Source: Coemansia sp. RSA 487
Lineage: Eukaryota; Kickxellomycota; Kickxellomycetes; Kickxellales; Kickxellaceae
Assembly (NCBI GenBank): GCA_027577595.1
Contig: JANBRJ010000029.1
Span: 1-64,000 of the forward strand
Direction: 5' to 3'
Length of the DNA stretch: 64,000 bases
The notes under the pieces were generated by a model. It was not told the DNA's origin. It did no database searches and worked only from the letters and a program-made list of their open reading frames with translations. This document shows positions 1 through 54,289 of this stretch, piece by piece; position 1 is the first letter of the stretch, and each line of letters starts with the position of its first letter. The translations under genes and the position numbers were made by a program.

Positions 1-1945
1 TGCAGGCCAGAAGGTGCCGTATAAATACAATTTGTTTGTTAGAACGCGCAAAGTGACAACGAAGCTGGCGTTCTGAGCAGAAGCAGTAATTATACGCATG
101 TTGGTGCTCTCTTGTTCTCCCTCCCTTTCCTCCCTCTCCTTTCTGGCATTTTTCTATATGTTTACATTGTGGAATTGGCATCTTTTACAGAAAGATAAAC
201 CCGTGTGCATAAATATCTTCGTCGAACAAGCATGCTTTTGTACCAAGCCAAGCTCTATGTGCTTACAAAGGACAAAGGAAGCCAATCTTGCTGTCTTTAC
301 AACGCATGCAATAGCATGCAAAGACTGATATTTTTTCTTTCCATTTTATACACGTGCTTTTCTTGGCTTGCTAGCAACTTTGCAATAGGTGCTATTGGTT
401 CTTTTTATACATGTCTGGAATTCTAGTTCCTGGAATAGCATCATAAAACTTTGTAAAGGTTCTTCTACTTTGGTTGTCGATTTTATGCCAAGCCCACGTG
501 TGTTTGCAAATCCTCTTTTGTGACAAGATATGTAATGGCCATCGATTCAGTATTTCCCTCCTATATTGGCAACTTGATCAGTGCAGACAAGTCCAGTCAA
601 ACACGCATATTAAACGACATGCCTTCCATGGCCCCTGTTTTTATTGTGGCTCTTGGAATGTTGCCTCTTTTAGTATGTAACAAATTTATGCTTACGCTAG
701 CAACCCTAATGTTATTACTGAAGCTGTAAAGTTGATATCTGTCGACAGGATTTGCTCTGGAATATACCATCCATCTCCAAACAATAGTAGGATTTTGGTG
801 GGGGGTTGTGTGTTGCCAACCCTATTTTTCTTGTGATCCTGAGAGCTTGTATATATTAGTGGATCGACTGGAAGGATCAGATGTGTTTGTGTCTTTTGCA
901 GCTGAAGAGTAGCGATGATGACACCACATATTAGGAGGGATATTGTGGTGTAGATGCGCTCGATTTAGGTTGATAGCGCTGACTAAACACGCCCTTAGGT
1001 ATTATAATTACGCACTCTTATTGACTTTTTTTTTAAAAATATCGGGGGTTTAATGTGCACATTTGGTAATATAAGATCTTGATTTTTGCAGATAGATGTG
1101 CTGTGAACAAGCAAAAAGTAGTCGAGGGGCACATAATCTGTGGCAAATGTTGAAAATCAATGATGCAACTGCGCAGGGGAAAAGAAGGGGCTGGATGAGC
1201 TTTGCAGTAAGTAAGGGATAAAACACAGCCAAAACGCGCACCTTAAAAGCCTGTCACATGCTGGTCAATTGTCCATTCGTGAAGAACCATTGTTACGAAG
1301 GGGCGACTTGCAGAGCCGCTAGAAATTCAATAAGATTTTGAAAGAATATTATTTTACAAAGAGCTTCCCGTCGTTTATGTCGGGAGCCCCTTGGGTTTAA
1401 ATATACCTAAAAAGTACAAAAGTTTGAAACTATTTGAGAAAGAAGATTTATATAAAACTGCTTAATCTGATAGGGTTCGAAAGGATGTTTTTAATGTGCA
1501 AAGTGGCGAATACATTAAAGTGCCAGAAAAATTGGGGAAAAATAACTAATGTTATAACCAAATCAATAGATCAAGCACTGTGTCCGTTATGGACGGATAG
1601 TGGATGCGTGATAGAAGGACGCCTGGAGAGTTCGAGAGCGTGAAAAGCCGTGTCTTTGTTGAGCAAAATGATTGTGTAATATTCAAATCAAAAACAAGAC
1701 GAATGGGAATATCTTGCATTTATGTCTTTCCTTTTGTCAACAAATGTTTTTCTATTTGAGAGAGAAAATATATTGTACTGTAGCATTACCACGTATAAAC
1801 AAAAGAAGCTTTAACCCACCTGTCATGTACATTTGTCAGCAAAAAGGCCCAGTGTAATAAAAATATTCGTTGTGGCAGAACTAAAGTTCCCCGTTCATTT
1901 GAAATAACAATTAGTCATTTTATAGCCGTACAAAAACTTTCTATC

Positions 1946-2108
1946 TTATGGTGGATCATTGTATATCCATTGATCCATCATAATGCATATGAGAGATCCA
2001 TATCACAAAAGGGACCTTTTGTGACACGAATTTATCTGAGTTATGATTGTTGATTCCGTATGCTATTCAACAATACGATTGTTGGTGTTAGAACAATCTT
2101 ATTGTTGA
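1946..2108. repeat. Cluster of short inverted repeats
   Basis: Several hairpins follow one another. Arms 1946-1961 and 1968-1983 match at 14 of 16 positions around a 6-nt loop. CACAAAAGG at 2004-2012 pairs perfectly with 2015-2023 around 2 nt. ATTGTTGA at 2046-2053 pairs with TCAACAAT at 2067-2074, and ATTGTTGA recurs at about 2101-2108. Such density is unusual for ordinary intergenic DNA. It could be a non-autonomous element end, a structured RNA, or AT-rich coincidence. Confidence 0.5.
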
Positions 2109-2843
2109 TCGAATATGACATATAGCACCCGTTTATACGAATAGCTGCACAATGTTTAATTTGGCTATAAAAGCCATCGTTTTATTGAATAAACGAAAGG
2201 AGGAATTTTAGTTTCCTCCAAGCCTTAAGCGTATTATATTTCAGTAGTGAATATTTTTATAACAAATACCCTTAGTGTAATAAAACTTTTCTTACTATTT
2301 GGTATATCTTTAATAAACTAAAACGGAGCTGAAGAATCTCCTTTTCTTCATGCTAAAAATCACAACAAATGTATGCATGTCCATAGATGATCATGCATAA
2401 CATGTAAACAAGAGTGCCTATTATTTTCTGCACTCAGCATGATCGGATTTAGCTAAGCTGCATCATACTTAGTCAAATTGTTAAAGAAAAAGAAAAACAT
2501 TAGTTGTCTTTAAAAAGCATGAAATAGCTATAACAGGGGGCATTATTGTAAAGAAAAATTGGGCGAGGGGGGCGCGATACAACAACTTTTCCCAAAAAGG
2601 GAAAAAAACTGGCAGTCGCTATATAGTTTATGTAAAACCAACGTGAAGAAATAGTGTGGTCATCACCTGAATATACTGGAGTTAATCAGCAGGAAGAGAA
2701 AAGCCTCGCTTGGTCTATTCTGCTGTAAGATCAATAATAAAAAGTGCGATTGGGTTTCTTCCATTGGAGATTAGTCTCAACTTCCTAACTTTACAAAATA
2801 CATTAAAAACATGGGAGGTTTCACAATTCACCGAAACTTCCTT

Positions 2844-2926
2844 GGGATCCGTCCCGACTTTCGGCGAGTTCTCACCGAAAGTAATTCATTAATTCATTGC
2901 AGCTGTTTAAGATCGAGACGGATCCC
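2844..2926. repeat. Nested perfect inverted repeats
   Basis: GGGATCCGTC at 2844-2853 is exactly reverse-complementary to GACGGATCCC at 2917-2926. Inside this pair, ACTTTCGG at 2857-2864 is exactly complementary to CCGAAAGT at 2875-2882 around a 10-nt loop. This gives a two-part fold of about 83 nt. The function is unknown; it lies about 0.75 kb upstream of the Fanzor gene. Confidence 0.6.
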
Positions 2927-3661
2927 GGCGTTGAGTTTAGCCAACTTTTAGTGATCAAAGAGCACTAAAATTTGGTGTATTATAATGAGACACAGTCTTG
3001 GTGGGCCAAATCTGCCTTACTGGATATATATTCTATAGTTTAAGATAACCTCCATTGCAACCTTTGCTTATTTTCATCATTAATATAATTATACATGCTT
3101 AATCTTTCAAATTCTTTTAGACGCAGCTTTTCTATGCTGTTGTTTTAATATAAAACTGTGTTTCAATTATGTTTTCTAAGCAACGAATCAGTATAATTCA
3201 TGAGTTGTGAAGGGGGCGGGAGAACGACTGGCAAACAGCATAAAAATAATTCAATAACAGAGAATGAGTAAGAATTGACAAATGAAAACGTATGCATAAA
3301 AATGGCAATTTAATGTTGACATAATAAAATACAGTTGCTGCATTATGCCACCTATAGTAAACAAGCATTTATCTTTCTCTGCAGCTGCGATGCTGGTCTT
3401 GCTACCTACAACTAATAGTGGCTATTTGTCAAATTTTTGCCTAGCAATTACACCAGGCCATTGTTTATTTAGTTATGTATTTGGAAAAGAGAAAGGAAAA
3501 AAACAAAAACAAAAAAAACAAAAAAAAGCGAAAAAAAAACAAAATGTAATATAAAGGCAAGAGCGACTACAGACAGTATTCCGTACCCATCATTTTCTAT
3601 ATTCTATATTGCCAAAAATATTATTGAAAAAAACAATAGAAATTTATTTTCAAATGTTAAT

Positions 3662-6181
3662 ATGAAGGACATTCGCACAACCAAGGTTCCTCTCCAGGCA
3701 GTGGGCTGGAATGAGGAATACAAGGCGACCTTGGAGGCCCTTGTACGTAATGTCAATTTCATAACTATGCAGGCGTTACTATTTGCACGATATATTTTTA
3801 TTGACGAACTTTACAAAAATCAAAACTTTCAATTTCATACTTATTTGAGCAGGCAGTTTTTTATGGAGGCATTCCTCCACTTGACTGCAAGGCAGGCACA
3901 GCAAGCTAAGGCTGTGACTGCCGCAGCTCGCCAACTGATAGGCAGCAAACATCTTATCAATTTTCAGCACTTGACAAATATGCTTCATCTTGACATTGGC
4001 AGCCTCAACCAAATCTCTAGCTACGAGGGAGAGAAAATGCTAAATGCATACCTCAACAATATTAAGTTGCGTTTTGCTACTTACCTACGCAAATCCATTG
4101 ACGTTGCGCTGCAAACACGGCAGCGCAAGCATGCCATCCAGCGAGAGTCCTGTGGCCATGCGCGAAAGGCAATGATACAAGCTGAAATATCACGGCCGAA
4201 ACGCCAGGTCCAAGACGCCATTCGTACCGGATCCCGCGACATCCGTGGCCTCCTCCCTCCTGCCATTATCGCGATCCGTCGTCTAACGCCGATTCTTAGT
4301 TCCTATGCTACAGACTATGAATTTGAAAAAAACAATATTTATTATGACGTTAAAGTGCATCCTGAAATGCATGCGAAGGCGTTTTTTAGGATCGCTCAGT
4401 TATTTGAGACAGAAGGTGAGCGTGTGTTCCAAAGTATGCCGCTGCGCATGACGTGGGTGCCACAGCACATAACTGTAGACACCGAGGTTCTGCGCCAGAA
4501 CATATTGCAAGATAAAACATACAGATCAACACAAGACACAAAGGAAAACATTTGGTGGCGGGTTTTGGATACGAAATCCAAAGCAATAGTATCGCAAAAC
4601 GGTTATAATTTCACTTACACAGTACAGACGGATGGCGTTTCTATTTCGATACTCAAAGAAAAGGAGGGCAGCGGCTGGATGCCTAAGCGAAAAAAGGGTG
4701 AAGAATTTAAGTATGTGAGCGATCTTAACAAGAGAAAGCTCAACGAAATCATGGACAGAAGCGCATATTTGGATCCTAATCGCCACGACCTCGAACATGG
4801 CATCCTTCCTGGCAGCACAGCAGAAGACCCAAAGTCTATTCGTTATACTCGCAACCAACACGCACACGAAACGGAAATGCATAGGCATCAAGATATACTT
4901 ATTATTGTAAAAGCTGCGTACCGCAACGGCATCGTGTTAGAGGCTGAGGAGCACCTCCAACAAGTATCGTGTACAACGACGAATCCTACAGAGTATAAAA
5001 AATATTTGCGAACAAGAACAGCTGTGCACAGCGTTTTGAGCAAGTTTTACACGGAAACCCTCACCAATCGCAAGGAATTCGGGCAATATCTGCATCGTCG
5101 TTTAAGGTTGTCTACTTACATGAATCAGTTGGCGGTGGACCAGCGCCTTGCGAATTATATCCGAAAGAAGGCAGGGAGAAACGACCTCGTGTTGATTATC
5201 GGCGACTGGCAGGCAACGATGGTGCGCTTCCAGGAGCCGATTCGCGACATCGGCATGCTTCGTATGCTCCGACGACAGGGCTTCGAAGTGTATAAAATTG
5301 ATGAGTTCCGGACGTCAACATTTTGCCCTGGCTGCGGTGGTATACTGCGCAAGTGTCTCCGCGTCCAGAATCCGCGCAAGAAATCCAGAAAGAAACGCCC
5401 ATTCGTTGTGTGCCATGGGTTGCTCGAGTGCACTAGCGATGAGTGTATCCAGTATGTGAAGGAGAAGCTGAGTGAGAAGAACGTGAATGAGTCTGGTGCT
5501 GGGGGCGATCCGGGTGTGACTGTTGAGGGGCGCTACTGGAACCGCGACACAGCAGCTGCGCTGAACTTTAAAATAATCACCGATAGCTTGCGCACAGTCG
5601 GGCGTGTCCCAGAGCGTTTCGATCGCAACGTGAAGCTGACCCCGGAGCAGCAACGCCAACAACGCCAACGCCAACCGCTCAAGCTACAGGTGCCGCCCAA
5701 GCTACAGCAGACGCGGGAGGAATGGCAGCAAACGCGGCAGAACTACCAACAACGAAAACAGAAGCAGCAGCACCAACGGCAGGAGCAGCGTGCACAGCAT
5801 AAGGAACATGAGGAGAAACGCCTTCTGAAAAACCAACAACGACTCGAGAAACTACGCGAGGCGCAACGAATTAAACGAATGGATGAACAAGAACAGCGGG
5901 AGAGGGAGCTCGATATGCGAGTTGCAGCGTTTAAAGAACACCGTCGTCAATTCAAACAGAAGAGGCGCCAAAAACGCGAACTGCAGCAACAACAACAAAT
6001 GCAACCACCAAACAAAACCCGCCGTCTCGCTAGACGCGCTGCTGCTGCGACCACTCCTGTTGCTGACAACACTCAGCTGAACCGCCGTTCCAAGCGCAAG
6101 GCTGCTACGGCCTCAACGTCTGCTGCAACTGCATCAGGGCAGGAGCAGACTGCCATGCGTAAGCGTGCTGACCAGCAGTAA
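3662..6181 (+). CDS. Fanzor RNA-guided nuclease (TnpB/OMEGA family), apparently intact
   Basis: An 839-residue uninterrupted ORF related to TnpB/Cas12, the eukaryotic Fanzor family of RNA-guided DNA endonucleases carried by mobile elements. The N-terminal half (about 1-320) is the recognition/wedge part. The RuvC core includes TDG at 323-325, the DPNRHDL block with candidate RuvC-I Asp371, GDW at 514-516, DEFRTS with Glu548, and NRDTAAALNF with candidate RuvC-III Asp629. A zinc-binding insert has CPGC (555-558) and Cys590/Cys595. Glu548 in DEFRTS fits the relocated catalytic Glu described for many Fanzors; that assignment is inference. Residues about 655-839 form a Q/K/R-rich, probably coiled-coil tail with basic clusters usable as nuclear localisation signals. 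The ATG at 3662 follows an A-rich leader. No intron is evident. Family membership is very likely; activity is untested. Confidence 0.93.
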   Translation: MKDIRTTKVPLQAVGWNEEYKATLEALVRNVNFITMQALLFARYIFIDELYKNQNFQFHTYLSRQFFMEAFLHLTARQAQQAKAVTAAARQLIGSKHLINFQHLTNMLHLDIGSLNQISSYEGEKMLNAYLNNIKLRFATYLRKSIDVALQTRQRKHAIQRESCGHARKAMIQAEISRPKRQVQDAIRTGSRDIRGLLPPAIIAIRRLTPILSSYATDYEFEKNNIYYDVKVHPEMHAKAFFRIAQLFETEGERVFQSMPLRMTWVPQHITVDTEVLRQNILQDKTYRSTQDTKENIWWRVLDTKSKAIVSQNGYNFTYTVQTDGVSISILKEKEGSGWMPKRKKGEEFKYVSDLNKRKLNEIMDRSAYLDPNRHDLEHGILPGSTAEDPKSIRYTRNQHAHETEMHRHQDILIIVKAAYRNGIVLEAEEHLQQVSCTTTNPTEYKKYLRTRTAVHSVLSKFYTETLTNRKEFGQYLHRRLRLSTYMNQLAVDQRLANYIRKKAGRNDLVLIIGDWQATMVRFQEPIRDIGMLRMLRRQGFEVYKIDEFRTSTFCPGCGGILRKCLRVQNPRKKSRKKRPFVVCHGLLECTSDECIQYVKEKLSEKNVNESGAGGDPGVTVEGRYWNRDTAAALNFKIITDSLRTVGRVPERFDRNVKLTPEQQRQQRQRQPLKLQVPPKLQQTREEWQQTRQNYQQRKQKQQHQRQEQRAQHKEHEEKRLLKNQQRLEKLREAQRIKRMDEQEQRERELDMRVAAFKEHRRQFKQKRRQKRELQQQQQMQPPNKTRRLARRAAAATTPVADNTQLNRRSKRKAATASTSAATASGQEQTAMRKRADQQ

Positions 6182-6400
6182 AAACAAGCCTTCACGTATC
6201 GTGTCGTATCAGCTATTACTGATACCATAAGCGGTCTTGCGCCTTTATCGCTGGCGATGGATGCCTCTCAGGAGGGCCCTTTGCGACAGACTTCTCTTTG
6301 AGTTGTTTTAGCGAGGGGGTTCGTTTCTAGGGCAATAAGGCGTGTAAATGGGCCTTTGGAGGGTTTTTGAATCCTCCAGTGAGAAACTGTAAGTATTCTG
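6182..6400 (+). ncRNA. Candidate Fanzor guide RNA (omega/f-RNA) scaffold
   Basis: Directly after the Fanzor stop codon come three hairpins. GTATCAG (6206-6212) pairs perfectly with CTGATAC (6219-6225). CCTC (6264-6267) pairs with GAGG (6272-6275). TGGAGG (6357-6362) pairs with CCTCCA (6373-6378). In TnpB and Fanzor loci the guide RNA usually overlaps or follows the 3' end of the nuclease gene and ends at the element's right end. Location and structure fit, but no guide boundary, conserved copy or expression can be shown from one locus. Confidence 0.35.
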
Positions 6401-8435
6401 ATGTCCTATGTTTGCTGCTGTTTTTGCTGCTGTGTGTTTTATGTGTAGAGTTGAATAATTCATGAGGAAGGTGGTGCGATGTTTACTTCTTGATTAAAAG
6501 GGAAAGAAGCAGAGCTAAAAAAGCCTCCGATTCTCATGACTGAGAAAGAGAAACAAACTGCTGCTACTATTCGTGTTTCTGATTGGTTATTATTTTACTA
6601 ACATATACTTTTGATTTTTTGGTATTTCTTGTATGACGCTTTCGCAAACTTTCACAAACTTTCACACATCGTGAAACGTTGTCTTATACAGACCTCCCTT
6701 TCTCTCAAATAGCGTTTTCATCTTTTTGGATTCTTAGTTTTAATTTACATATCAGCAAACATAGCGCACTTGCGACTGTTTTCTGGGGATCACGCCACAG
6801 GCAAGAGGTGAGGGTAGAACATCACAGGCGCGATTACGAGGTAAGATATGGGTTTATCGCAAGCACAAGGCTGTTGCAAATCTCAGGAGGCATTGCTATT
6901 GGTCTGTTTTGCCACGATTGCAGGGCAGATATTATTCTTGGCGGTAATTTTACAGCCAATCAGACAGGGAATGTGCCAAATCGATGATGATGGTGACGAT
7001 GAACGACAAGGCGAAAAGATCCGCTAAAACTGGCAGAGATGAACAAAATCGAGAAACATTACAGTACTCGCTGTTTAGACAAGGATTGTGGCTGTCTTGC
7101 GAGTAGCATGATGTTTGAGTATTTGAAACACCACCGAGGGCTTCAGAGAACAATGGGCATGTATATATGAGTGCACAGACATGAACAATCCAGCGTGCCT
7201 CTGTATCACTTTGCATTGCAATGCATTGCAGAGGAGAGGAACGCGCGAAATCGCATTACATCGCATTGTATAGTATTTGGTGGCCCTTATTCCTGTATCT
7301 TGTGTCTTTGGGTTGCAAATGGCCAGCAAAAGCAAGGGCCTTTTGCAGAGGAAAACAGCAACATCTTTGGGAGATCGGCTTTATTTCTAAAAAGACAGTT
7401 TTCTCTTTGCTCCGTTTGAGGAGGACGCAGGAGAAGACTAGCGTGCTCTTTCTCCATATAGCATATGCATGTGTAATTGCCTTTTTTTTTATCACTCCCC
7501 CAACAAAGCACAAGAAAATGAGCACAGCAAAAAAGCTACCACGGTCGTTTGAGCGACATGAGCTCAGGCTTTCCTTTTCTGGCAACTCGAACCTATCAGC
7601 ACAAATCTCGTGTGCAATGCTGGCCCATCTGCCCTTGCCAGAATATTTGTCTACTTGTCTTGGTGGCAGTCGGACAACACATTGTGTTTTTATCGATGAT
7701 GTAGAAACGTCGGGCTTTGGGGGGATGTCATGTCACCCCTCGATTATCCTCCGTTATGCCTACGCGCACAAGTGAAATGAATATATGTCCTTGAAAGCAA
7801 TAGAAGCATTGGGAGCAATAGAAGCAACACTGCATGCATTTCGCCCGGCACTGCCCTGTGCCTAGCAAATTTATTCTCCCTGCCCCCAAAGACATGCTGA
7901 ATGGTAAGAGAAGATGCTTTTTTTTTTGCTTTGAGCAAAAGCAATTGTCCCGGTCCTGTATGTCATACTGCTGCTTACCTTTTTTTTTGCTGCGATAAGT
8001 TGCCCCAATTTCCCGACAAAGTTTGCTTCTGTCGATTAACCCGACCAAATGCCATCTGCTGCCTTTTGTTTCTGCCTGTCTAGGTTTTTTTCTTTTGATC
8101 CTCTACGGTGACTACTTAAAAGGCGGCCCCTGCGCTCGCCTTTGAATCCGCGATTCAAGAACACCAAGCGCATTTCATCCAACACATCCTCGTTTTTTCT
8201 TTTGCTTGTTTTCTCCCTTCGTTGCCAACATTTCGGCCACTCTGCGTATCAGCAAGCGTGGCAACACTTTTGCCACTGTCCCTCCTAAATCATAGACAGA
8301 AAGCAAGAACAAGCAAGTAGCGACGCTAACATTTCGCTTCTACTCATTTCCTTTCCACAACCTGGTAGCTCCTGCTGCTACTGTAAAACAAGACAACACA
8401 AGCCAACACAAAACAAAACAAAACAAAACTTCGTA
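6401..8435. other. Intergenic region between Fanzor and first MATE gene
   Basis: No supported gene. Short ORFs here have no recognisable domain and lack consistent starts. Visible features are a tandem AAACTTTCAC near 6655-6668, GCATTGCA-type palindromes near 7210-7230, poly-T runs and, at 8405-8435, a CAAAA-repeat leader immediately before the MATE start. The 3' boundary of the Fanzor element must lie somewhere in the first part, but no terminal inverted repeat was found by eye. Confidence 0.5.
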
Positions 8436-10115
8436 ATGACTGGTTCGCAGGGCGCAAGGCGCATCGACTCACAGAGGACGCTTAGCGGAGACCCGTCCGA
8501 AATATACAATGATCTGCCGGTTATAAACTACACATCCTGTGTTGCGGATGACGATACAGATCCTGCATCCTTCGGCATTGGGGCACCTGAGCCAGACGAT
8601 GAAACCTACCTTTTGTCCACAAACAAGAAAAAGAAGACCCCATACATGTTTATCGCAAAGGAAGAGACCAGCTGGCTGACCGCATCATCTATCCCTGTTG
8701 TCGCAACGTACTTTTTGCAGTTCAGTCTTGGATTTGCCAATTTTGTAGTTATCGGCAATCTAGGCGCCAAGGAGCTAGCTGCGACGTCACTGTCGTACAT
8801 GGTGTCGGGCGTATTTGCCCTGGCGCCGGCTCTCGGATATGCATCGGCCATGGATACCTTCTGCTCCAGTGCATTTACTGCATCAACTGACAAGACTCTT
8901 GTGGGCGTACACTTCCAGCGCGGCGTGGTCGCAGTCGTTCTGCATCTCATTCCAGTCAGCGTCATCTTTCTCAACATGGAATGGCTGATGCTGCTTCTTG
9001 GGCAGGATGCCGAGATTGCAGCGCTGTGCGGGAGCTACATGCGCGTGTTTCTTCCTGGCGTGCTGCCGTGGGCCCTGTACGAGTGCACAAAGCGCTACTT
9101 GCAGGCTCAGGGCATCATGCGTGCCAGCACCATCGTCATCCTCGTCACTGCGCCGCTCCACTGGCTCAATAGCTACCTGCTCATTCTGTCGCCTACGTTT
9201 GGAATCGGCTATCTCGGCGCGCCGCTCAACCTGACAATCACCTTCTGGCTCATGTTTTTGGGCATCTGGGCGTACGCCATGCTTAGCCCTCAAGCGCGCT
9301 CCACTTGGGGCGGATGGTCGTGGGAGTGCGTGCGCGGATTGGGCTCGTTCTACAAGCTAGGGATTCCAGCCGTGATTACCACGTGTGGTGAGTGGTGGGC
9401 GTACGAGTCGCTCTCGCTTCTGGCCTCCTACTTTGGCGCGGCACAGCTGGCCGCCCAGGCAATCATCATCAACATCATGTCTCTTTCGGGCCAGATACCA
9501 AGCGCTCTAGGCTTCGCGTCGACGCCGCGCATCGGCAACCTGCTTGGCGGAGGCAAAGGCCGTCAGGCGCGCATTTCAGCGCACGTCATCATCGTCATGA
9601 CCATCATCGTTGGGACTGCCACTTCGACCTCCTTTGTCGTCTGGCGCCAGTGGTGGGGCGAGATGTACAGCAAGGACCCCGAGGTCGTGGATGTGGTCGT
9701 GAGCCTTATGCCGATAGCTGGGCTCTTCCTCACATGCAACGGACTGAACCAGGTGTTTGCGGCCATCTTGCGCGGACTGGGGCGCCAGAAGCTGGGTGCC
9801 TACATCATTGTCCCGACCTTCAACTTTATCGGACTCCCACTGAGCGTCTACTTTGCATACGGCCCGCCGCACATGGAGGTCCTGGGGCTCTGGTGGGGTG
9901 CATGCATAGGTACCGTGGTGTCTGCTGTTATCCAGCTTATCGTCATCATGTACTGGACGGACTGGGACATGGAGGTTGAGCGGTGTCTGCGCAGGCTCAT
10001 CGACAGCAGCCCCAGTGCAGGCATTGACGGCATTACGGACGGCTGCACTACACCAGTCAACGAGGCGGCCACCGACCAGATCCCCACCAGAGAAAGCTAC
10101 GGATCCATCGTATAA
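8436..10115 (+). CDS. MATE-family multidrug/toxin efflux transporter (array copy 1)
   Basis: Intronless, 559 residues. MATE proteins (MOP superfamily) export organic cations, drugs or metabolites in exchange for H+ or Na+, using twelve transmembrane helices in two homologous halves. Here an 80-residue polar N-terminus precedes the first helix. Family-typical segments are visible: GNLGAKELAA and PALGYASAMDTFCSSAFTA early in half one, and AAQAIIINIMSL followed by STPRIGNLLGGG in half two. The C-tail is hydrophilic. The protein is clearly related to the next two genes but more divergent from them than they are from each other. Location is probably plasma or vacuolar membrane; the substrate cannot be read from sequence. 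Confidence 0.93.
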   Translation: MTGSQGARRIDSQRTLSGDPSEIYNDLPVINYTSCVADDDTDPASFGIGAPEPDDETYLLSTNKKKKTPYMFIAKEETSWLTASSIPVVATYFLQFSLGFANFVVIGNLGAKELAATSLSYMVSGVFALAPALGYASAMDTFCSSAFTASTDKTLVGVHFQRGVVAVVLHLIPVSVIFLNMEWLMLLLGQDAEIAALCGSYMRVFLPGVLPWALYECTKRYLQAQGIMRASTIVILVTAPLHWLNSYLLILSPTFGIGYLGAPLNLTITFWLMFLGIWAYAMLSPQARSTWGGWSWECVRGLGSFYKLGIPAVITTCGEWWAYESLSLLASYFGAAQLAAQAIIINIMSLSGQIPSALGFASTPRIGNLLGGGKGRQARISAHVIIVMTIIVGTATSTSFVVWRQWWGEMYSKDPEVVDVVVSLMPIAGLFLTCNGLNQVFAAILRGLGRQKLGAYIIVPTFNFIGLPLSVYFAYGPPHMEVLGLWWGACIGTVVSAVIQLIVIMYWTDWDMEVERCLRRLIDSSPSAGIDGITDGCTTPVNEAATDQIPTRESYGSIV

Positions 10116-11064
10116 ACAAAAGGACACGGATTACGCGTATCCCACCTGTCCACTATACTCTACCCTTATCCGCTATTCTTTTCTTTTCCATTTGTTTCAT
10201 TTATTTTGAGCCTTTGAGGGATGTGTGCTGCAGAGTATGCGCTTCTTTGCACTGCGAAAACATATTAATATATTATATGTACATAAATGCAGTGTGTATT
10301 CTATCGCATATATGAGCCTGTATATCTCTAATGGTGATGGCCCTTGCTTTAGCAGCACTAGACATTCTTTTGTTTAGCCATGCCATTATTTGGAAGCCAA
10401 TTCATATGGCTGTCAGATGATAGAAGTAGCAGTAGATGCAATGTCTGCACATGCTCACACCCCTTTAATTTTCTTCTATCGTTTGCGTGTCTGTGCATTG
10501 AGGGCAGGGCAGCGTGCAGCCATATATGCAGGTAATGTAACCAAGGATTTAAGTGTCTGTGCATTCCTGTTTGCCAATGCACACATGCAGGCAGCAAAAA
10601 AATGCAATCCTAAAAACATACGAAAAATGTCCTAAATATCTGCGCACGCAGCTCAGCTCCGGATTCTCAGTTTCAGCAGCAGATTAGCTGAAATCGATAA
10701 ATGACACATTCAGACAAAAATTTTTTTTGGGGTAAAAGGCGGAAGATCGCGCAACTCCTTTTTGTAAACCTTGCTTGAACAATCGTTTTTAAATTGACCC
10801 AGTGAAAATGACCTTTAACTTTTTCATAGGATGAAAATTCAATTCGAACAAAGCGTTTGAAAATGTATAAAAGGGCGTCCTATCCTGCGCACTGCTTAAA
10901 ACTTGATCAAAAAACTCTTTCTTCTGCTCAGTTTTAAATTTATATTTTGTTACTGTATGGTGGGCGTAGCTGCGACATTTTTTGTATCTGCTTTTTGTTG
11001 ATACACCAAATATTGAAAGATATAAAGAGCTAATTTACCTGATATTTTCTAATATTCCTTCAGT
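10116..11064. other. Intergenic region between MATE copies 1 and 2
   Basis: No gene supported. It holds AT-rich DNA with a poly-T run near 10721-10729 and a TATA-like motif at 10866-10873, about 190 bp before the next start codon. Confidence 0.5.
10866..10873 (+). promoter_or_regulatory. TATA-box-like motif before MATE copy 2
   Basis: TATAAAAG lies about 190 bp upstream of the second MATE start codon, in otherwise AT-rich non-coding DNA. This is a motif match only. Confidence 0.35.
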
Positions 11065-12651
11065 ATGTCTCGCCAGGACACGCCTCTTGCAAGGGCCAGT
11101 GATAGTGGATCAGAGTCGACGCCATTGCTGCAGTCTTTCTCTGGCACATCTGACACAAGCACTGATTGCCATCTCGAGTCGGGAAATGCAGTGCTTGGCC
11201 ACTCGGGGTCGACAGCGACTTTGTACAACGAGTTTGCCGAGTGCGATTCTGTAAGTACCGCTGTCATAGCCAAGCAGGAAGCCAGACTGCTGGTAAGGTC
11301 AGGCATTCCACTTGCTCTTGCATATCTCCTGCAGTTTAGTTTTAACTTTGTCAATATTCTGTCGCTGGGCCATCTGGGCGCTGACGAACTTGCCGCTGCT
11401 GCTCTCGGAAACATGACGTTGTTCATGCTCGTGAACGCACCTGCAGTCGGTCTGGCCTCTGCGCTTGACACGTTCTGCGCAACAGCATTCACTGCCTCGC
11501 GTAACAAGACGCTTGTTGGCTTTCATCTGCAACGCGGGTTAATTTCTGTCACCGCTCATCTTGTCATCGTGCTGCCTGTTCTAATGAACATGGAGCCCAT
11601 TCTTGTTGCTTTGCAGCAGGATGCTGGTGTATCGCACCTATGCAGCCGCTTCATCCGTGCCCAACTGCTCGGTCAGCTTCCATGGATGTACTTTGAGTGC
11701 ATCAAGCGTTTCTTGCAAGCTCAGGGGCATATGAAGGCGAGTACATATGTGCTGCTTGCCGTACTGCCTCTCCATCTGGCAAACAACTACCTTTTCGTGT
11801 GGTCGCGTACCTTTGGATTCGGGTTTCTGGGTGCTGCTGCCGCAAATGTCGTGACATTTTGGGTAATGTTCCTCGGGATTGTTGCGTATTGCTGGCGCAC
11901 AGAAGCCAAAGCAGCATGGGGCGGATGGACTCGTCGCGCCTTTACTTCCATGCCACAGTACTACCGCCTGGCAATTCCCTCGCTCATCATGGTGTGCTCT
12001 GACTGGGCAGCATGGGAGCTAATGGCCATTGCTGCAAGTTATTTGGGCAATGTGACTTTGGCCGCACAATCTATCGTCATCAACACATGCTCGCTAACTT
12101 ATCAGATCCCTGCAGGCATAAGCATTGCTACCAGCAACCGCACAGGCAATCTTCTTGGTCAGGCACGCGCACGCCGCTCCGAGATCTCGTCTGCTACTGG
12201 GCTGTCTCTTGGTGCGATTTGGGGCATCGTGTCATCAGTACTGTGCTTTGCTGTTGCTAGCTGGTGGGGACGCATCTATTCCAGCGATCCTGGCGTAATT
12301 GCTGGCGTTGCTCTAATCATGCCAATCTGCGGTGTTTTCCAACTTGCTGATTCTGTGAATGGCGTCAGCGGGGGCGTTCTGCGTAGCATTGGCCGCCAAG
12401 CTGCTGGCGCATGGATCAACTTTCCGTCGTATTATTTTGTTGGGTTTCCGCTTGGAATTTACCTAACATATGGCCAACCTGCAATGGGTGTTGTTGGGCT
12501 ATGGCTTGGTCTATGTGTTGGCGTATTTATCACTGCCATTGGACAGACAATCATCTGCCTACGCACAAAGTATATGGCGGAAGTGGAAAAGTGTCTTGCG
12601 CGGGTCAACAAAACTCAACAAGCAGCCACCAGCGACCCCGTTACTTATTGA
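11065..12651 (+). CDS. MATE-family transporter (array copy 2)
   Basis: Intronless, 528 residues, same fold as the neighbouring genes. The N-terminal tail is polar and Ser/Thr-rich and includes TPLLQSFSGTSDTS. Then come LGHLGADELAAAALGNMT, a LASALDTFCATAFTASRNKT segment, and in half two AAQSIVINTCSL and TSNRTGNLLGQARARR. Near-identical stretches with copy 3, for example at LGHLG, PALNMT-like and NRTGNLLGQARARR positions, mark the two as a tandem duplicate pair. Efflux function follows from the family; substrate and membrane are unknown. Confidence 0.93.
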   Translation: MSRQDTPLARASDSGSESTPLLQSFSGTSDTSTDCHLESGNAVLGHSGSTATLYNEFAECDSVSTAVIAKQEARLLVRSGIPLALAYLLQFSFNFVNILSLGHLGADELAAAALGNMTLFMLVNAPAVGLASALDTFCATAFTASRNKTLVGFHLQRGLISVTAHLVIVLPVLMNMEPILVALQQDAGVSHLCSRFIRAQLLGQLPWMYFECIKRFLQAQGHMKASTYVLLAVLPLHLANNYLFVWSRTFGFGFLGAAAANVVTFWVMFLGIVAYCWRTEAKAAWGGWTRRAFTSMPQYYRLAIPSLIMVCSDWAAWELMAIAASYLGNVTLAAQSIVINTCSLTYQIPAGISIATSNRTGNLLGQARARRSEISSATGLSLGAIWGIVSSVLCFAVASWWGRIYSSDPGVIAGVALIMPICGVFQLADSVNGVSGGVLRSIGRQAAGAWINFPSYYFVGFPLGIYLTYGQPAMGVVGLWLGLCVGVFITAIGQTIICLRTKYMAEVEKCLARVNKTQQAATSDPVTY

Positions 12652-12978
12652 CTGCACCAGTGTTAGAAACAACAAGGATAATTACACTTATTGGGCGAAT
12701 TTGAGATCGTTGCATATAGCTATTGTTTTTTACACTTTTCTGCTGTGTGGAATTTTTTTGCAGGTGATATATTAATACATGTTTTATACTCAAAAGCATG
12801 TTATGCTGACTCATCGGATATCATGTATGAGGTGCATGTATACGGATATTTTTATTTCCGCCTTTTGCTTCGATTGCATAAAAGCTAATCTTTCTTTCTA
12901 TTGTTGTCGTTTTTGGTTTGTTTTCCAAGTTTATAAGACTCTAAAGGCATTTTCCCTCCTCGTCTTGCAAGCGGAGCC
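12652..12978. other. Intergenic region between MATE copies 2 and 3
   Basis: About 330 bp without a gene. It is AT-rich with a pyrimidine-rich stretch just before the next start (about 12890-12965). Nothing else stands out. Confidence 0.5.
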
Positions 12979-14562
12979 ATGGTCCACCAAAATATACTGC
13001 CCGTGAGCTCTGGCGGTATGGCTACTGAATCTACGTCGCTGCTGTCTCGCTCAGATGTGCCTGCCACAATTGTCAGCGATTGCGCAGAGCCCGGAGACAC
13101 AGAGCTAGGACACGCGGATTCGGCTCTGGGCGCGGATAACAGCTTTGCCGAGTACGACTCTACGAGAACTGCTGAAATAGTGAAACAGGAAGCTGGAATA
13201 CTTGTAAAATCCAGCATCCCAGTAGCGTTTGCTTGTCTTATTCAGTATACATTCAGTTTTGTTAATATCCTGTCGCTGGGCCATCTGGGCTCCAACGAGC
13301 TTGTCGCTGCTGCTCTCGGAAACATGACCGTGTATATGATTGTGAGCGCACCTGCAATCGGCCTTGCAACTGCGCTTGACACCTTTTGCTCAACGGCATT
13401 CACCGGCTCCCGCGATAGGACGCTTGTGGGCTTTCATTTGCAACGCGGAATAATCGCTGTCACCCTGCACTTTGCTCTTGTGCTGCCAGTACTCATATAC
13501 ATCGAGCCCATCTTTATTTTTCTGCGCCAGGATGCTAATACATCGTACCAATGCAGCCGCTTCATCCGTGCCCAGCTGCCCGGGCTGCTTCCATGGATGT
13601 GCTTTGAATGTATCAAGTGCTTTCTACAGGCTCAGGGATACATGAGGGCGGGTACATGTGTGTTGATCACGACACTACCTCTCCATCTGGCAAACACCTA
13701 TATTTTCGTGTGGTCGTCTACATTTGGATTCGGTTTCCTGGGCACTGCCGTCACAAACGTCGTGACATATTGGGCAATGTTTATCGGGATTATTGTCTAC
13801 TGCTGGCGCACGGACGCAAGGGAATCATGGGGCGGATGGACGCGTCGTTCGTTTACCACTATGCCACAGTACTATCGTATTGCTATTCCATCGGTGGTCA
13901 TGGCGTGCTCTGACTGGATAGCATGGGAACTACTGGCCATTGCTGCGAGTTATCTAGGCAATGTGACGCTGGCCGCGCAAGCAATCGCCATCAACACATG
14001 CCCATTGACATACCAAGGAGCCAGTGGTATACGGACTGCGGTCAGCAACCGTACAGGCAATCTTCTTGGTCAGGCACGCGCGCGTCGTGCCGAGATCTCG
14101 TCTGCTACTGGACTGTCTCTTAGCGCGATTTGGGGTGTAATGACAAGTGTAGTGTATTTTATCGTTGCTGGCTGGTGGGGCAGTGTCTACACTAGTGATC
14201 CAGATGTAATTGCTGGAGTCGCTCTTATCATGCCCATTTGTGGTATTTTCGAGCTTGCCGACTCTATCAGCTGTGTCGGTGGAGGCGTTTTACGCAGCTT
14301 TGGTCGGCAGGCCGACTCTGCACGGATCATTTCTGTGTCGTACTATATTGTTGGGCTTCCTTTAGGCCTTTATCTTACATATGGATGGCCTGAACTGGGC
14401 GTGATTGGACTATGGATTGGACTCACCATTGGCGTGTTTATCACAGATATCAGACAAACGGCGGTCTGCTTGCGTGCCAATTACGCTGACGAAGTTAAAA
14501 AGTGCCTTGCCCAAGTCAACAGATCCCAACGCGCGGCAGCCTATGATGGCACTAGCCAGTGA
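12979..14562 (+). CDS. MATE-family transporter (array copy 3)
   Basis: Intronless, 527 residues, closest to the preceding gene. It has the LGHLGSNELVAAALGNMT and ALDTFCSTAFTGSRDRT blocks and, in half two, NRTGNLLGQARARRAEI. Differences from copy 2 are spread along the helices and loops, for example QGASGIRTA where copy 2 has QIPAGISIA, as expected of diverged paralogues and not of gene conversion along the whole length. ATG 12979 was chosen; an in-frame ATG 39 nt downstream (13018) is a possible alternative. A drug or metabolite antiporter by family; substrate unknown. Confidence 0.92.
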   Translation: MVHQNILPVSSGGMATESTSLLSRSDVPATIVSDCAEPGDTELGHADSALGADNSFAEYDSTRTAEIVKQEAGILVKSSIPVAFACLIQYTFSFVNILSLGHLGSNELVAAALGNMTVYMIVSAPAIGLATALDTFCSTAFTGSRDRTLVGFHLQRGIIAVTLHFALVLPVLIYIEPIFIFLRQDANTSYQCSRFIRAQLPGLLPWMCFECIKCFLQAQGYMRAGTCVLITTLPLHLANTYIFVWSSTFGFGFLGTAVTNVVTYWAMFIGIIVYCWRTDARESWGGWTRRSFTTMPQYYRIAIPSVVMACSDWIAWELLAIAASYLGNVTLAAQAIAINTCPLTYQGASGIRTAVSNRTGNLLGQARARRAEISSATGLSLSAIWGVMTSVVYFIVAGWWGSVYTSDPDVIAGVALIMPICGIFELADSISCVGGGVLRSFGRQADSARIISVSYYIVGLPLGLYLTYGWPELGVIGLWIGLTIGVFITDIRQTAVCLRANYADEVKKCLAQVNRSQRAAAYDGTSQ

Positions 14563-34839: not shown

Positions 34840-35289
34840 TGAGCCCACACGGTAAATGTGGTTCAAGGCAATATTATATCACGGACTATCCTCAATATAG
34901 TTTTTTTTAGATTGTGATAATAATCTCAATATAATTTGGTGTGTTTTGCAAAACTAATTGCGCCGAATAAGAAGGGCGTATACGCGTCGAATAGTGAAAA
35001 GTTTGCGGTGACGATAACACATTTTGCGTTCCAGGACAAAACCGTTTGCGTCGGCTGGCGTGGCATATGCGTCAGTGCAAAACGGGAAACACAAATGATT
35101 AGTACTGTCGTCTAGAAGCAGCTACAGATGTTTATATCTTCAGCTCTCATTTGAGCACCTACCTGCAAAAGGGACAGCATCCTATCCTAGAGCTAGGATT
35201 CCTAGAACTAGGATTTGCCGCGGCTATAACCTTGGCTGGATGTCGTGGTGGTTGTTATTTGTTTGTCCTCGCCGTCTTCCTTTTCTTCT
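34840..35289. other. Intergenic region next to degraded Fanzor
   Basis: About 450 bp without a gene. It holds the tandem palindrome at 35184-35214. Confidence 0.5.
35184..35214. repeat. Two adjacent ATCCTAG palindromes
   Basis: ATCCTAGAGCTAGGAT (35184-35199) is followed directly by a second palindromic unit, TCCTAGAACTAGGA (35200-35213). They lie about 80 bp beyond the coding end of the degraded Fanzor copy, where an element's right end could be. Confidence 0.7.
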
Positions 35290-36123
35290 TGGGTTGCTAT
35301 TCATCGGAGGTAGCAATGGCTGCAGCAGAAGCGCTCTGGGGTCTCGCTGCGATCGCGAAGGCCATGAAAAATATGCCTGAAGCTGAGAATGGCAGCGAGA
35401 TTTCGGTTGTACATGCGTGAACGAGAATTCAAAACACCATCCATTTCCACGGGCCCTATACATAGTTCGCTGGTGCACTTAAGGAGACTGTGGCAGAGGA
35501 ATTCTTCCACCTTCTTTTGTTGGTAGGGGCGGGGGTTGGGCACTTTCAGGAACTTCTTGAGAGTGCCGGTGAGGCAGTCTGGGCAAGCCTTTGATGTTCT
35601 GAATTCATTAATAAGATAAACTCGGCACCCTTTCTTCCTCAACATTCGCCGAAACCAGACCCCCATATGGGCTTTCATGGTAGCGAGCCATTGGCGCACT
35701 CCAATTGCCTAAGCTCACAGTGGGCTTTTCGTCACTGCATGTCACCCGAATGCTCTTTGCTAAGCTACTCATCGGCTTGTTGTTGCTTGGTGTGAGTGGA
35801 TTGCCGAAGCCTACGACAAATTGGCTAAAGGTTGTTCCCATTCTTGCTAGTGGTTATAATGTTCGTGTAGAGTTTACCCAGAACTGGCTAAACAGCAGCA
35901 CGCGTCCTGACATACTGCTCATATTTACCTGAAAAGAACTACTTGTGAGTAGCCAGCTCATGGACAAATATCCACCGAGCCAGCCCATACATGTGTGCAG
36001 AGGCTGTGTTGGCCACTACGACATAGTCGTTTACCTTGGTAATGTCACTTCTGTCATTCACCAGAGATTTTAGGGGCACTTTATAACACGTGTCCCTGTG
36101 TCTGATATATCATCATTGTCCAT
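35290..36123 (-). pseudogene. Degraded, internally deleted Fanzor copy
   Basis: Fanzor similarity is clear but broken. Near the 5' end a block (about 36085 down to 35942) reads KVPL and later YGLARWIFVHEL, matching residues about 8-50 of the intact protein (ARYIFIDEL). Almost at once it jumps to KYEQYVRTRAAV (about 35925), matching residues 446-455, so about 390 codons including the RuvC-I Asp are missing. The rest has GNW (for GDW), NEFRTSKACPDC, LLKCTSELC and YNRNLAAILSF, the last with Asn where the intact protein has the RuvC-III Asp. Frame changes and stops interrupt it. PERF marks the end of similarity; a PKKKRK basic cluster follows. Divergence shows it is an older or different lineage, not a recent copy of the 3.7-kb gene. 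Confidence 0.85.
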
Positions 36124-36361
36124 TGCGGATGGGTGAGCAAAGAAAAGCATATACCTAATATAATGTATGTGTTGAAAGGTGTATTTGGTGTTGCTAGTAG
36201 AGATAAAATGTCAAAGGAAAGCCAAGGAGAACCAAAAGTGAAAAGGAAAAATAAGTGTTCTTGGAATGTAAAATACATTATTGCCACTGTAAATATTTTG
36301 CCATTTGACGCATGTACATCCTTCTTATTCGACGCAGTTAGTTTTGCAAAATACACTATGT

Positions 36362-39584: not shown

Positions 39585-40586
39585 ATGACAGGTTCACAGC
39601 GATTCGGCTCACCAGGCGGTGTTCCCCGTGAGTTTCATCTGACAGCTGGCGGAGCTATCCAGAAGGTAAAAAACAGAGCCGTTACAACTAATCGATGCAC
39701 TTAGTTACTTGCATTTCTACACCGTGTTCGCTAAAGGAAATATGTCTGCTTTTGCTATATAGGTCACAGGGTGGTGGGTGCCATTCCTACACACGGTGTT
39801 TGCATCAAGTAAGTAGCGCGTTACTGCGATTGATTTAGCCTTGTCGGCATAGAAAAAAGATAAGGAAAGATAAAGCCACAAGCCAAATACTAACAATCCT
39901 CCGCTTTTCAGTTTCTGATTCTAGCCGCATTTATCGGCGCTCTCGTTATCGGGTGGAAGCTCCATTATTTCAAGATCGTGAAGAATGAATATTACGGGTA
40001 TCCTGACGAGTGGTTTCCCTCAGTATCAGCGACAATTGGCGACAGGTACCCGGGACGCAATGTCTTCCAGATCCTCATTGCGCTGACGGCACCGCCCCGC
40101 CTTCTTCTACATATATTCTGGTACATCCTGACTGTGCGTGCAGCACCCAAGCGTGCGCAGGCTCTTTTCTGGATCGGGTTTCTGCGTACATGGACCTGCG
40201 GCGGATGGGTGTATGTGACCTCGGGCGACGACCATGACGTACACGACGTGATGATGATATCGTACATGCTGCTGACACTTCCATACATGATCCTGCTTAT
40301 AAAAATATGCGATCTCTCGCCGTTCACCTACAACGCAAAGGTGCTTAGCCAAAACAAAAACCGCCGCAAGTGGGTTGCCATCATGTTCTTTGGCTCCATC
40401 CCGCCAATGATCTATTTCTTCATCAACCACAAGGTCCACCATATTGCCGGTGCTTACACCACGTATGCGTTCTTCGAATGGGCCCTTATCTTGTTTGATG
40501 TCATGTTTGATTCGCTTGCGATGGTCGAGTTCAAGGCGCTTGATCTGGCTGTTTTGCCGGCCAAACCTAGCGAGGATCGCGAATGA
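39585..40586 (+). CDS. PGAP2/Frag1/CWH43-N-like membrane protein
   Basis: Three exons, 39585-39665, 39763-39808 and 39925-40586, 262 residues. The start MTGSQRFGSPGGVPREFHL leads to WWVPFLHTVFAS, and after the second intron TAFIGALVIGWKLHYF. Then EWFPSVSATIGDRYPGRNVFQ, the hallmark segment of Frag1/PGAP2/Cwh43 N-terminal proteins, and about five membrane helices. PGAP2 acts in the Golgi in fatty-acid remodelling of GPI anchors; yeast Cwh43 fuses this part to a second domain that is absent here. The third-exon acceptor CTAG at 39924 keeps the frame; CAG 13 bp earlier does not. Poly(A) signal at 40665. Confidence 0.85.
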
Positions 40587-51342: not shown

Positions 51343-54289
51343 ATGGTTAACTTCACCGTCGATCAGGTAAGTTGGAAATTTGAAATTTGATGTATCTCTC
51401 TCTCTGCTCAAGCAAGGAGCGTGTACTTTACTGACACGGTCTGAGGCCCGATGTTCTGTATTTTGCTTAGCGCTCAGTGCCTTTCTTCCCCCACGTGCCT
51501 TGTCAGAGAGAAAACATGCTCTAGTATTGGCTGGTTAGATAGGCTGGGTGGTTAATTGGCCGTCTTCCAGTGCAAATGGGGTTGGCAAACGCAGCAACCA
51601 ACGCTTTTCCCTTTTAGCTTGGCGGAATAGGCGTTGCCTTCTTTCATCCCCCTCCAGAGCGGTTATTTATTCAAAACGAGAAAGAGCATTTTGGATCTGT
51701 TTTCTAAATACACACCTGCCAATGGTTGCACTTTTGCTTTTGTCTTTGCTTTTGCCTTTCTTCGCTGCCCTTGAGCAACAATAGATCCGTGAGCTCATGG
51801 ACAAGGTCCACAACATCCGTAACATGTCCGTCATTGCTCACGTCGACCACGGCAAGTCCACTCTGACCGACTCCCTTGTCGCTAGGGCCGGTATTATCTC
51901 GAACGCCAGGGCTGGTGAGGCCCGCTTCACCGATACCCGTGAGGATGAGCAGGAGCGTGGTATCACCATCAAGTCTACTGCCATTTCGATGTACTTCGAG
52001 CTGAACGCCGACCAGATGGAGGACATCCCTCACAAGGAGGACGGCGATGGTTTCTTGATCAACCTTATCGATTCTCCGGGGCACGTTGACTTCTCGTCTG
52101 AGGTCACTGCTGCTCTGCGTGTCACCGACGGTGCTCTTGTTGTCGTCGATACCATCTCTGGCGTGTCTGTTCAGACCGAGACTGTGCTTCGCCAGGCCCT
52201 GACCGAGCTGATCAAGCCTGTTGTCATGATCAACAAGGTTGACCGTGCTCTGCTTGAGACCAAGCTCACCAAGGAGGTTCTGTACCAGAACTTCTCGCGT
52301 GTGGTCGAGGACGTCAACGTCTCCATCGCCACCCACCAGGACGAGAAGACCATGGGTAACCTTATGGTCAGCCCCGAGCACGGCACCGTTGCCTTCGGTT
52401 CCGCCCTCCACGGCTGGGCCTTCACCCTGCGCCAGTTTGCCGTGCGCTACTCCAAGAAGTTCGGCATTGACCGTGTCAAGCTTATGAAGAAGCTCTGGGG
52501 TGAGAACTACTTCAACGGCAAGACCAAGAAGTGGACCACCAAGAGCAGCGACGACTCGGGCGAGAAGACCGACCGTGCCTTCAACATGTTTGCCCTTGAC
52601 CCGATCTACAAGATCTTCGACTCGACCATGAACGGTCGCAAGGATGAGGCCATTGCCCTTGCCGGCAAGCTCGGCATCAGCCTTACCAGCGAAGAGCGCG
52701 ACACCGTCGACAAGGCCCTGCTGAAGACCATCATGCGCAAGTTCCTTCCTGCCGCCGACGCTCTTATGGAGATGATCTGCATCCATCTGCCGTCGCCCAA
52801 GAAGGCCCAGGCCTACCGTTGCGATCTTCTGTACGAAGGTCCCTCTGACGACGAGAGCGCTGCCGGTATCCGCAAGTGCGATTCCAAGGGCCCGCTCATG
52901 CTCTACGTGTCCAAGATGGTGCCGACCTCCGACAAGGGCCGCTTCTACGCCTTCGGTCGTGTCTTCTCGGGTACCGTCGGTTCGGGCATGAAGGTCCGTA
53001 TCCAGGGCCCTGACTATGTCCCGGGCACCAAGAAGGATCTGCACATCAAGACCATCCAGCGCACTGTCCTTATGATGGGTCGCATCACCGACCCCATCGA
53101 GGACTGCCCTGCCGGTAACATTGTTGGTCTCGTCGGTGTTGACCAGTTCCTCCTCAAGTCGGGTACCCTGACCACCTCGGAGACCGCCCACAACATGAAG
53201 GTCATGAAGTTCTCGGTGTCGCCTGTCATGCAGGTTGCCGTTGAGGTCAGGAACCACCAGGATCTGCCCAAACTTGTCGAGGGTCTCAAGCGTCTGTCCA
53301 AGTCCGACCCTTGCATCCAGACATGGACTTCGGACACTGGCGAGCACATTGTTGCTGGTGCTGGTGAGCTCCATCTTGAGATCTGCCTCAAGGATCTCCA
53401 GGACGACCACGCCCAGGTCCCCATCAAGACCGGTAACCCCATTGTTGGTTACTGTGAGACCGTCCAGGCCGAGTCGTCGCTCACCTGCCTTGCCAAGTCG
53501 CCCAACAAGCACAACCGTATCTTCATGAGGGCTGCTCCTATTGGCGACGAGCTGACCAAGGCTGTCGAGGAAAAGCTGGTTGCTCCTCGCGATGACCCCA
53601 AGGAGCGTGCCCGCCGCATGGCCGACGATTTCGGCTGGGACGTCAATGATGCCCGTAAGATCTGGTGCTTTGCTCCCGATGGTGACGGCCCGAACTTCCT
53701 TGTTGATAACACCAAGGGAGTGCAGTACCTGAACGAAATCAAGGACTCTGCTGTCAACGGTCTCCAGGACTGTGCCCGCCAGGGCCCCTGCGCCAACGAG
53801 AAGCTGCGTGGCTGCCGCTTCAACATCATGGATGTTGCTCTCCATGCCGATTCGATCCATCGTGGTGCTGGCCAGATCATGCCCGCCATGCGCCGTGCCG
53901 TCTATGCCGCGACCCTATCTGCCAACCCCACTCTGCAGGAGCCCGTCTACCTTGTCGACGTCCAGTGCCCCGAGGGAGCCATTGGTGGCATCTACAGCGT
54001 GTTCAATCGCCGCCGTGGCCAGGTCTTCGAGGAGAACATGCACTCCGCGTCGATGTACAACGTCAAGGCATACCTGCCTGTCGCCGAGTCGTTCGGGTTC
54101 ACCACCGATCTGCGCTCTGCCACTGCCGGCCAGGCGTTCCCCCAGATGGTGTTCGATCACTGGAGCATGATGGGCGGCGATGCCACCGACCCCACCGACA
54201 AGGTCAGCATCATCTGCAGCAGCATCCGCGAGCGCAAGGGTCTTGACCCCAAGGTTCCTACCTACGACCACTACCACGAGAGGCTGTAA
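51343..54289 (+). CDS. EFT1: Translation elongation factor 2
   Basis: Two exons, 51343-51366 (MVNFTVDQ) and 51785-54289, 842 residues, exactly the yeast length. It drives ribosomal translocation in the cytosol, using GTP. The G1 loop is [13 protein letters not shown]; the G3 DSPGH occurs in [15 protein letters not shown]4 NKVD follows. Switch 1 has [30 protein letters not shown] carries the His that eukaryotes convert to diphthamide. [14 protein letters not shown] and HWSMMGGD are domain V landmarks. The 418-bp intron follows the eighth codon (GTAAGT...CAATAG). Strong C/G-ending codon bias marks high expression and gives a long meaningless antisense ORF. Confidence 0.99.

Follow-up and report, generated by a model that had tools for sequence, protein, structure and literature searches.

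Fanzors are eukaryotic RNA-guided nucleases, and to our knowledge little is known of how they are kept up, or of how their guide RNAs are made, in nucleated cells. A Fanzor gene of the fungus Coemansia sp. RSA 487 raises the question of whether the guide RNA of such an element is one contiguous stretch, or is interrupted by an intron and put together by splicing. The gene lies in the first 64 000 nucleotides of contig JANBRJ010000029.1 (assembly GCA_027577595.1), the stretch that was analysed and is here termed the window; the whole contig (C29) has 174842 bases, in a genome of 17.8 Mb and 184 contigs. Papers are cited below by PMC number, for those parts of their text that were available. In the published plan, a Fanzor1 element combines a nuclease with an RNA from the 3′ end (the omegaRNA), whose guide comes from the flank (PMC10432273, PMC11423790), and published Fanzor1 RNAs include the transposon end in their scaffold (PMC10711439). 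Comparing the copies in this genome, we give an even chance to the reading that in three of the four Fanzor1 families examined (A, C and D) a spliceosomal intron would interrupt the omegaRNA within the loop of the guide-adjacent stem. There is good evidence for a predicted intron of this kind in families C and D, and moderate evidence for it in the window copy, a member of family A.

The original prediction was that the window carries an intact Fanzor gene, an uninterrupted ORF of 839 codons with the catalytic residues Asp371, Glu548 and Asp629 and a zinc insert of the form CxxC...C...C. All of this is confirmed. The frame runs unbroken from ATG to TAA, and shuffling the bases of this stretch 500 times gave no stop-free run above 239 codons. 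The three acidic residues are found where they had been placed, both in the translation and in an alignment of the protein with 16 relatives (17 sequences); D371, E548, T551 and S552 are invariant in this alignment, and the D629 column holds Asp in 14 of the 17 sequences and Asn in P0012 and P0014, with P0018 cut short there. The zinc insert consists of C555, C558, C590 and C595. Assignment to the Fanzor family is borne out by phmmer matches to PDB sequences, where the best match among solved structures is Parasitella PpFz1 (E = 2.8e-89), with SpuFz1 at 1.5e-29 and GtFz1 at 1.5e-4. The match to PF07282 (Cas12f1-like TNB) scores 16.8 bits, under the gathering cut-off of 26.3, which is passed by another Fanzor copy of the genome (C17, 28.4 bits); the precomputed label on relatives of the protein is PF26935. 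The Fanzor1 motif D-X(125,275)-[TS][TS]-X-X-[C4 zinc finger]-X(5,50)-RD (PMC3627910) is present as D371, T551 S552, C555..C595 and R628 D629, and the alternative glutamate belongs to the motif named Ealt in Fanzors (PMC10711439). The protein is a Fanzor1 member, with a RuvC fold predicted from homology.

PpFz1 (PDB 9cf0-9cf3) is homologous to the window protein over residues 4-473 and 478-656, with RuvC, zinc ribbon and REC/WED in common. The window protein lacks the PpFz1 insert of about 100 residues (chain 993-1095 unmatched), the FRI domain in PMC11423790, and unlike PpFz1 it has a 180-residue tail rich in Q, R and K. Its public annotation, P0004, is a 528-residue ‘hypothetical protein’ that omits parts of the protein and bears IW138_003297 as a further locus tag; genes of this kind are easy to overlook because the public model is incomplete and named in this way. 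Taken as a gene, this is a further member of a known Fanzor kind, and what would be new is the predicted spliced guide.

The gene very probably encodes a Fanzor1 RNA-guided DNA endonuclease carried on a mobile element of about 4.2 kb, from 2533 to about 6740 (Table 1). The 3′ region (6181-6740) has 50 genome matches at about 35 places, many of which are deletion derivatives. Its right end is sharp, with flanks that differ among copies. Four of the derivatives have a breakpoint at 5792 in common and a fifth begins at 5794; the left ends of derivatives carry the hairpin GGGAGGTTTGTATAAATACAACCTCCC, an 18-base stretch of which is complementary to the right end. No target duplication was established. 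Classical terminal inverted repeats were rejected for the window copy, in which local alignment of the right end against 1500-3700 gave a 12-base match at best; the complementary pair is found in the deletion derivatives only. Also rejected was 6388 as the right end of the element: copies diverge at differing bases between 6388 and 6407, and fuller ones reach about 6740.

Table 1. Features of the two Fanzor elements in the window (positions in the window; strand as + or -)
Feature	Position	Strand	Remarks
Left part of element	2533..3661	+	Homology with C40:100k and C18:46k begins at or near 2533
Unrelated inserted repeat in left part of element	2762..3107	.	Partial copies at many other genome places
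Fanzor1 ORF	3662..6181	+	839 codons, ATG to TAA; coding frame without intron
RuvC-I Asp371	4772..4774	+	From alignment
Glu548 in DEFRTS	5303..5305	+	‘Alternative’ glutamate position of Fanzors; from alignment
Zinc ribbon C555 C558 C590 C595	5324..5446	+	
RuvC-III Asp629	5546..5548	+	From alignment
Q/R/K-rich C-terminal tail, residues 658-839	5633..6178	+	Past end of PpFz1 match (residue 656)
Conserved structured block after stop codon	6204..6388	+	Candidate first part of omegaRNA scaffold
Hairpin like a tRNA T arm / box B (GGGGGTTCGAATCCCCC)	6358..6377	+	In many copies
Candidate spliceosomal intron	6389..6712	+	GTAAGT 6389-6394, TACTAAC 6596-6602, AAATAG ending 6712
Right-end hairpin CTTTCACACATCGTGAAA	6659..6676	+	Kept in L012, a Fanzor element of 39% identity
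Right-end sequence AAAGGGAGGTTTGTATAA	6684..6700	+	Complementary to left end of deletion derivatives
Right end of element	6713..6740	+	Between-copy homology ends at about 6740-6743; following bases are the presumed guide
Broken second Fanzor element, family C	34937..36354	-	Residues ~1-63 and 499-703, in several frames
RNA side of window family C copy	3′ block to 35163, GT 35162, TACTAAT 35104-35098, AG 34954	-	TTTTGCAAAACAC end
Left inverted repeat of window family C element	36258-36354		About 98 bases

That the gene belongs to a fungus, and so to a eukaryote, is borne out by the Coemansia genome; its placement in an accessory region is not supported, because the neighbours are ordinary genes. 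From 2.3 kb downstream these include genes for MatE (three), KH, Nop, CAF1, peptidase M3 and GARS/AIRS proteins, and also FAD oxidoreductase, LIM and MFS genes. The three MatE transporter genes are consecutive, at 8436-14562, and all on the + strand. Further on, at 51704-54289, a long ORF of the - strand (718 aa) overlaps one of the + strand (830 aa); a Pfam search with the 718-aa ORF gave no match.

Searching the genome with the window protein gave at least 96 matches, forming at least 48 loci; this count is a lower bound, with 54 of 203 candidates scored and pieces within 3 kb merged to one locus. Of 19 distinct loci read, among them that of the window, 13 encode 690 residues or more in one open frame and have D, E, D together with all four cysteines. 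Four Fanzor1 families, A (that of the window gene), B, C and D, were called from the 3′ regions. Family A has six coding copies; apart from the window's, their aligned frames hold 1, 4, 8, 4 and 4 stops. Compared with its nearest paralogue, C18:46460, the window gene has Ka 0.062, Ks 0.33 and Ka/Ks 0.189 (657 codons), with weaker constraint in the tail (Ka/Ks 0.463) than in the core (0.19). With the remaining copies as outgroup, the changes assigned to each branch give a dN/dS of about 0.27 for the window gene and 0.19 for the paralogue. Because of the Ks, the Ka/Ks and the two branch ratios, we conclude that the protein was long under purifying selection in the past and that the insertion is not fresh; a ‘recent’ element, as had been suggested, is not supported at this Ks to the nearest copy. 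P0003 of Coemansia sp. RSA 1813 differs little from the paralogue, with 684 of 722 columns identical, gaps counted.

A host gene domesticated from a mobile element would look similar in some respects: the window gene is the sole intact copy of its subfamily, its branch is under constraint, and the genome has no near-identical copy of it. We nevertheless consider domestication unlikely, since the left and right ends of the element and its 3′ RNA region are still present at the gene, the same Ka/Ks is expected from selection among mobile copies, and the paralogue with a ratio of 0.19 is itself broken by one TGA.

In the arrangement of the conserved sequence between stop codon and right end, family B follows the standard plan and the other three families depart from it. 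The family B scaffold lies directly after the stop codon; its conserved stretch ends 118-129 nt on in 21 of 21 places, and the flanks differ in 9 of 9 places read. Family C was sampled as 35 stretches (three without anchors, two without acceptor and one a duplicate row), which gave 31 distinct copies. Here the block measures about 76-92 nt and closes with ...CCTTTTGCAG. Next come GTARGT and, about 58 nt on, TACTAAT; another 68-165 nt lead to an AG and then to TTTTGCAAAACAC, where copies end. The GT donor is found in 30 and an exact TACTAAY in 23 of the 31 distinct copies, the AG acceptor in 25 of 29, and the flanks past the right end are all different (29 of 29). A search of the genome for an intronless family C copy, using the joined-ends pattern with up to three mismatches, gave no match. 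In one family C copy, L007 (C7:245k), the 3′ homology stops exactly at the predicted exon-intron border, and the sequence beyond is unrelated. Eleven of the 41 family C 3′-region matches listed sit less than 1 kb from a contig end, where assembly breaks or subtelomeric positions are possible.

Family D is represented by L012 and six further places, five of them alignable with L012; its consensus was made without L104, which has no donor or branch anchors. The order in this family is ...CATCG, GTAAGT, TTTACTAACGATTATTTT, CTTTTTTAG and then TTCTCAGTT, beyond which the flanks are unlike. Families C and D thus both have a donor GTRRGT, a TACTAAY branch site and an AG acceptor at constant places, with about 9-19 nt of element remaining after the acceptor. 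For comparison, an intron of an alpha/beta-type tubulin homologue in the same genome (C3) has GTAAGC, TACTAAA, 83 AG-free bases and GTGTAG. In the window, counting both strands, there are two donors with a TACTAAY no more than 90 nt on, one in the family C copy and one at 39809, in an ordinary-looking intron; the latter is a 103-base stretch outside the elements (39809-39911) that reads GTAAGT...TACTAAC...TTTTCAG.

In family A the intron signals are present and less clean than in families C and D. The conserved block of the window copy folds well (6186-6400, z -2.70, equalled by 0 of 200 shuffles). The candidate donor of this copy is GAGAAACT followed by GTAAGT at 6389, and exact GTAAGT is found in 11 of 28 distinct family A copies. 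The near acceptor of other copies, TTTTCTAG, reads TTTTTTGG in the window copy, in which the next conserved acceptor is CTCAAATAG, ending at 6712, with an alternative later AG near 6736. RNAalifold predicted no structure for 15 family A right ends and weak structure for the joined ends of eight copies, which we counted against any strong claim for this family. The block also has a T-arm-like GGTTCGAATCC (Pol III box B) that may aid transcription or be there by chance. Hairpins of this type prompted the idea that the 3′ block derives from a tRNA or a SINE, for which no support was obtained: ARAGORN found a tRNA in 0 of 17 loci, and Rfam gave two matches only, both under gathering scores.

When the acceptor is chosen by scanning onward from the branch point, the trace left is a scarcity of AG dinucleotides confined to the sequence after the branch site. 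In that stretch, up to the acceptor, family C copies have 25 AG against 148.6 expected from base composition (GA, 136), and 13 of 29 have none at all; between donor and branch site AG is not depleted (174 against 146.0). The corresponding counts are 16 against 30.7 for family D (seven rows) and 8 against 18.3 for the nine of 21 family A copies in which all anchors were found. There may nonetheless be no intron, the splice-like motifs and the AG scarcity having arisen by chance in one ancestor per family. Family copies are related and hence not independent, stretches of 100-227 nt without AG are present elsewhere in the window, the search for an intronless family C copy had no match, the intron stretch of family C is conserved about as its flanks are (0.789 against 0.822 and 0.736), and the depletion is not significant in the window copy alone (1 AG in 108 nt, P 0.14). 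Set against this are the consensus sequences, which give 0 AG in 151 nt for family C (P 0.0017) and 1 in 151 nt for family D (P 0.030); the restriction of the family C scarcity to the far side of the branch point; and the order of signals that families A, C and D share, with the donor first, then TACTAAY, then the acceptor. We judge chance to be unlikely.

An intron in these elements could also belong to the mRNA only, with GT...TACTAAC...AG in its 3′-UTR and the guide RNA a separate, contiguous molecule made, as in PpFz1 and SpuFz1, for example from the last 80-100 nt, which include the hairpin at 6659-6676. Published Fanzor1 omegaRNAs are indeed short and contiguous, ending at the right end and measuring 75-150 nt (PMC11423790, PMC10432273), and the hairpin at 6659-6676 is kept in family D. 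What makes a contiguous guide somewhat doubtful is that in families C and D so little of the element follows the acceptor, that in family C these few bases base-pair with the closing part of the upstream block, and that family B has one contiguous scaffold straight after its stop codon. When the family C ends are joined they form the hairpin UUUUGCA(GUUU)UGCAAAA, extended by GCWGU/ACWGC, in which 90.1% of cells pair, against 34-66% when the partner is slid (26 distinct rows). In five copies one pair of this hairpin is swapped between U-A and A-U, and four copies have T on both sides. The number of paired cells and the covariation score were each matched by 2 of 500 shuffles; doubly changed pairs are not unusual (249 of 500 shuffles match), in a comparison that ignores common descent. 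The A/T swap across the junction has a Fisher P of 0.0009, likewise ignoring common descent, and the tree carries no support values.

Among known systems, PpFz1 has a contiguous omegaRNA of 75 nt (PMC11423790), where the window element has a candidate intron. Spu-1 of Spizellomyces punctatus, the element of SpuFz1, is likewise a fungal Fanzor1 with tens of full and partial copies, and its ghost loci, like the deletion derivatives described here, lack the ORF and keep the RNA end (PMC10432273). Spu-1 has an unbroken 75-nt omegaRNA scaffold and 30-nt inverted repeats (PMC10432273); unlike it, the Coemansia elements have about 150-325 nt, carrying intron signals, between block and right end. The CRe-1/2/3 elements of Chlamydomonas (Helitron2-type) have a left-end hairpin and a complementary right-end sequence, as the Coemansia derivatives do, and share with the Coemansia elements many 5′-deleted copies; they have no transposase of their own (PMC3627910), and none was found with the Coemansia element. 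They differ in that the left end of the window copy is unlike that of its derivatives, with no clear hairpin pair, and in that the Helitron protein PF14214 was unmatched in the Coemansia genome, a search that excludes nothing because 14 control genomes were equally unmatched. IStrons, TnpB elements of bacteria, contain a group I intron. They too have intron and guide RNA on one transposon end, as read here; their intron is self-splicing, of group I and bacterial, whereas the Coemansia signals are spliceosomal and the predicted intron would lie inside the guide RNA. By title and opening of abstract, no paper on a spliced Fanzor guide was found, which is no proof that such a guide is unpublished, and the available text of PMC10432273 does not mention introns.

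The arrangement suggests the following scheme. The Fanzor protein would bind an RNA that covers the non-coding 3′ part of the element and runs into the first flanking bases, those past the right end serving as guide. The loaded nuclease would cut those copies of this flank in which the element is absent, and repair from the element-bearing copy would then keep or spread it; RNA binding, cutting and a role in copying are what we infer for the window Fanzor. In the window's subfamily an intron probably separates the body of the RNA from the right end, so that splicing would complete the guide RNA, removing most of the right-end sequence and linking the scaffold to the element's few terminal bases and the guide.

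If this is true, a working guide RNA would need the host spliceosome, and the nuclease would be confined to nucleated cells. Splicing of the guide RNA would be a eukaryote-specific step in its maturation. The scaffold would no longer have to meet the sequence requirements of the transposon end, which would explain the separate evolution of the two, and omegaRNA searches built on the assumption of a single contiguous stretch would miss such systems. In the Coemansia genome, families with and without the predicted intron stand side by side.
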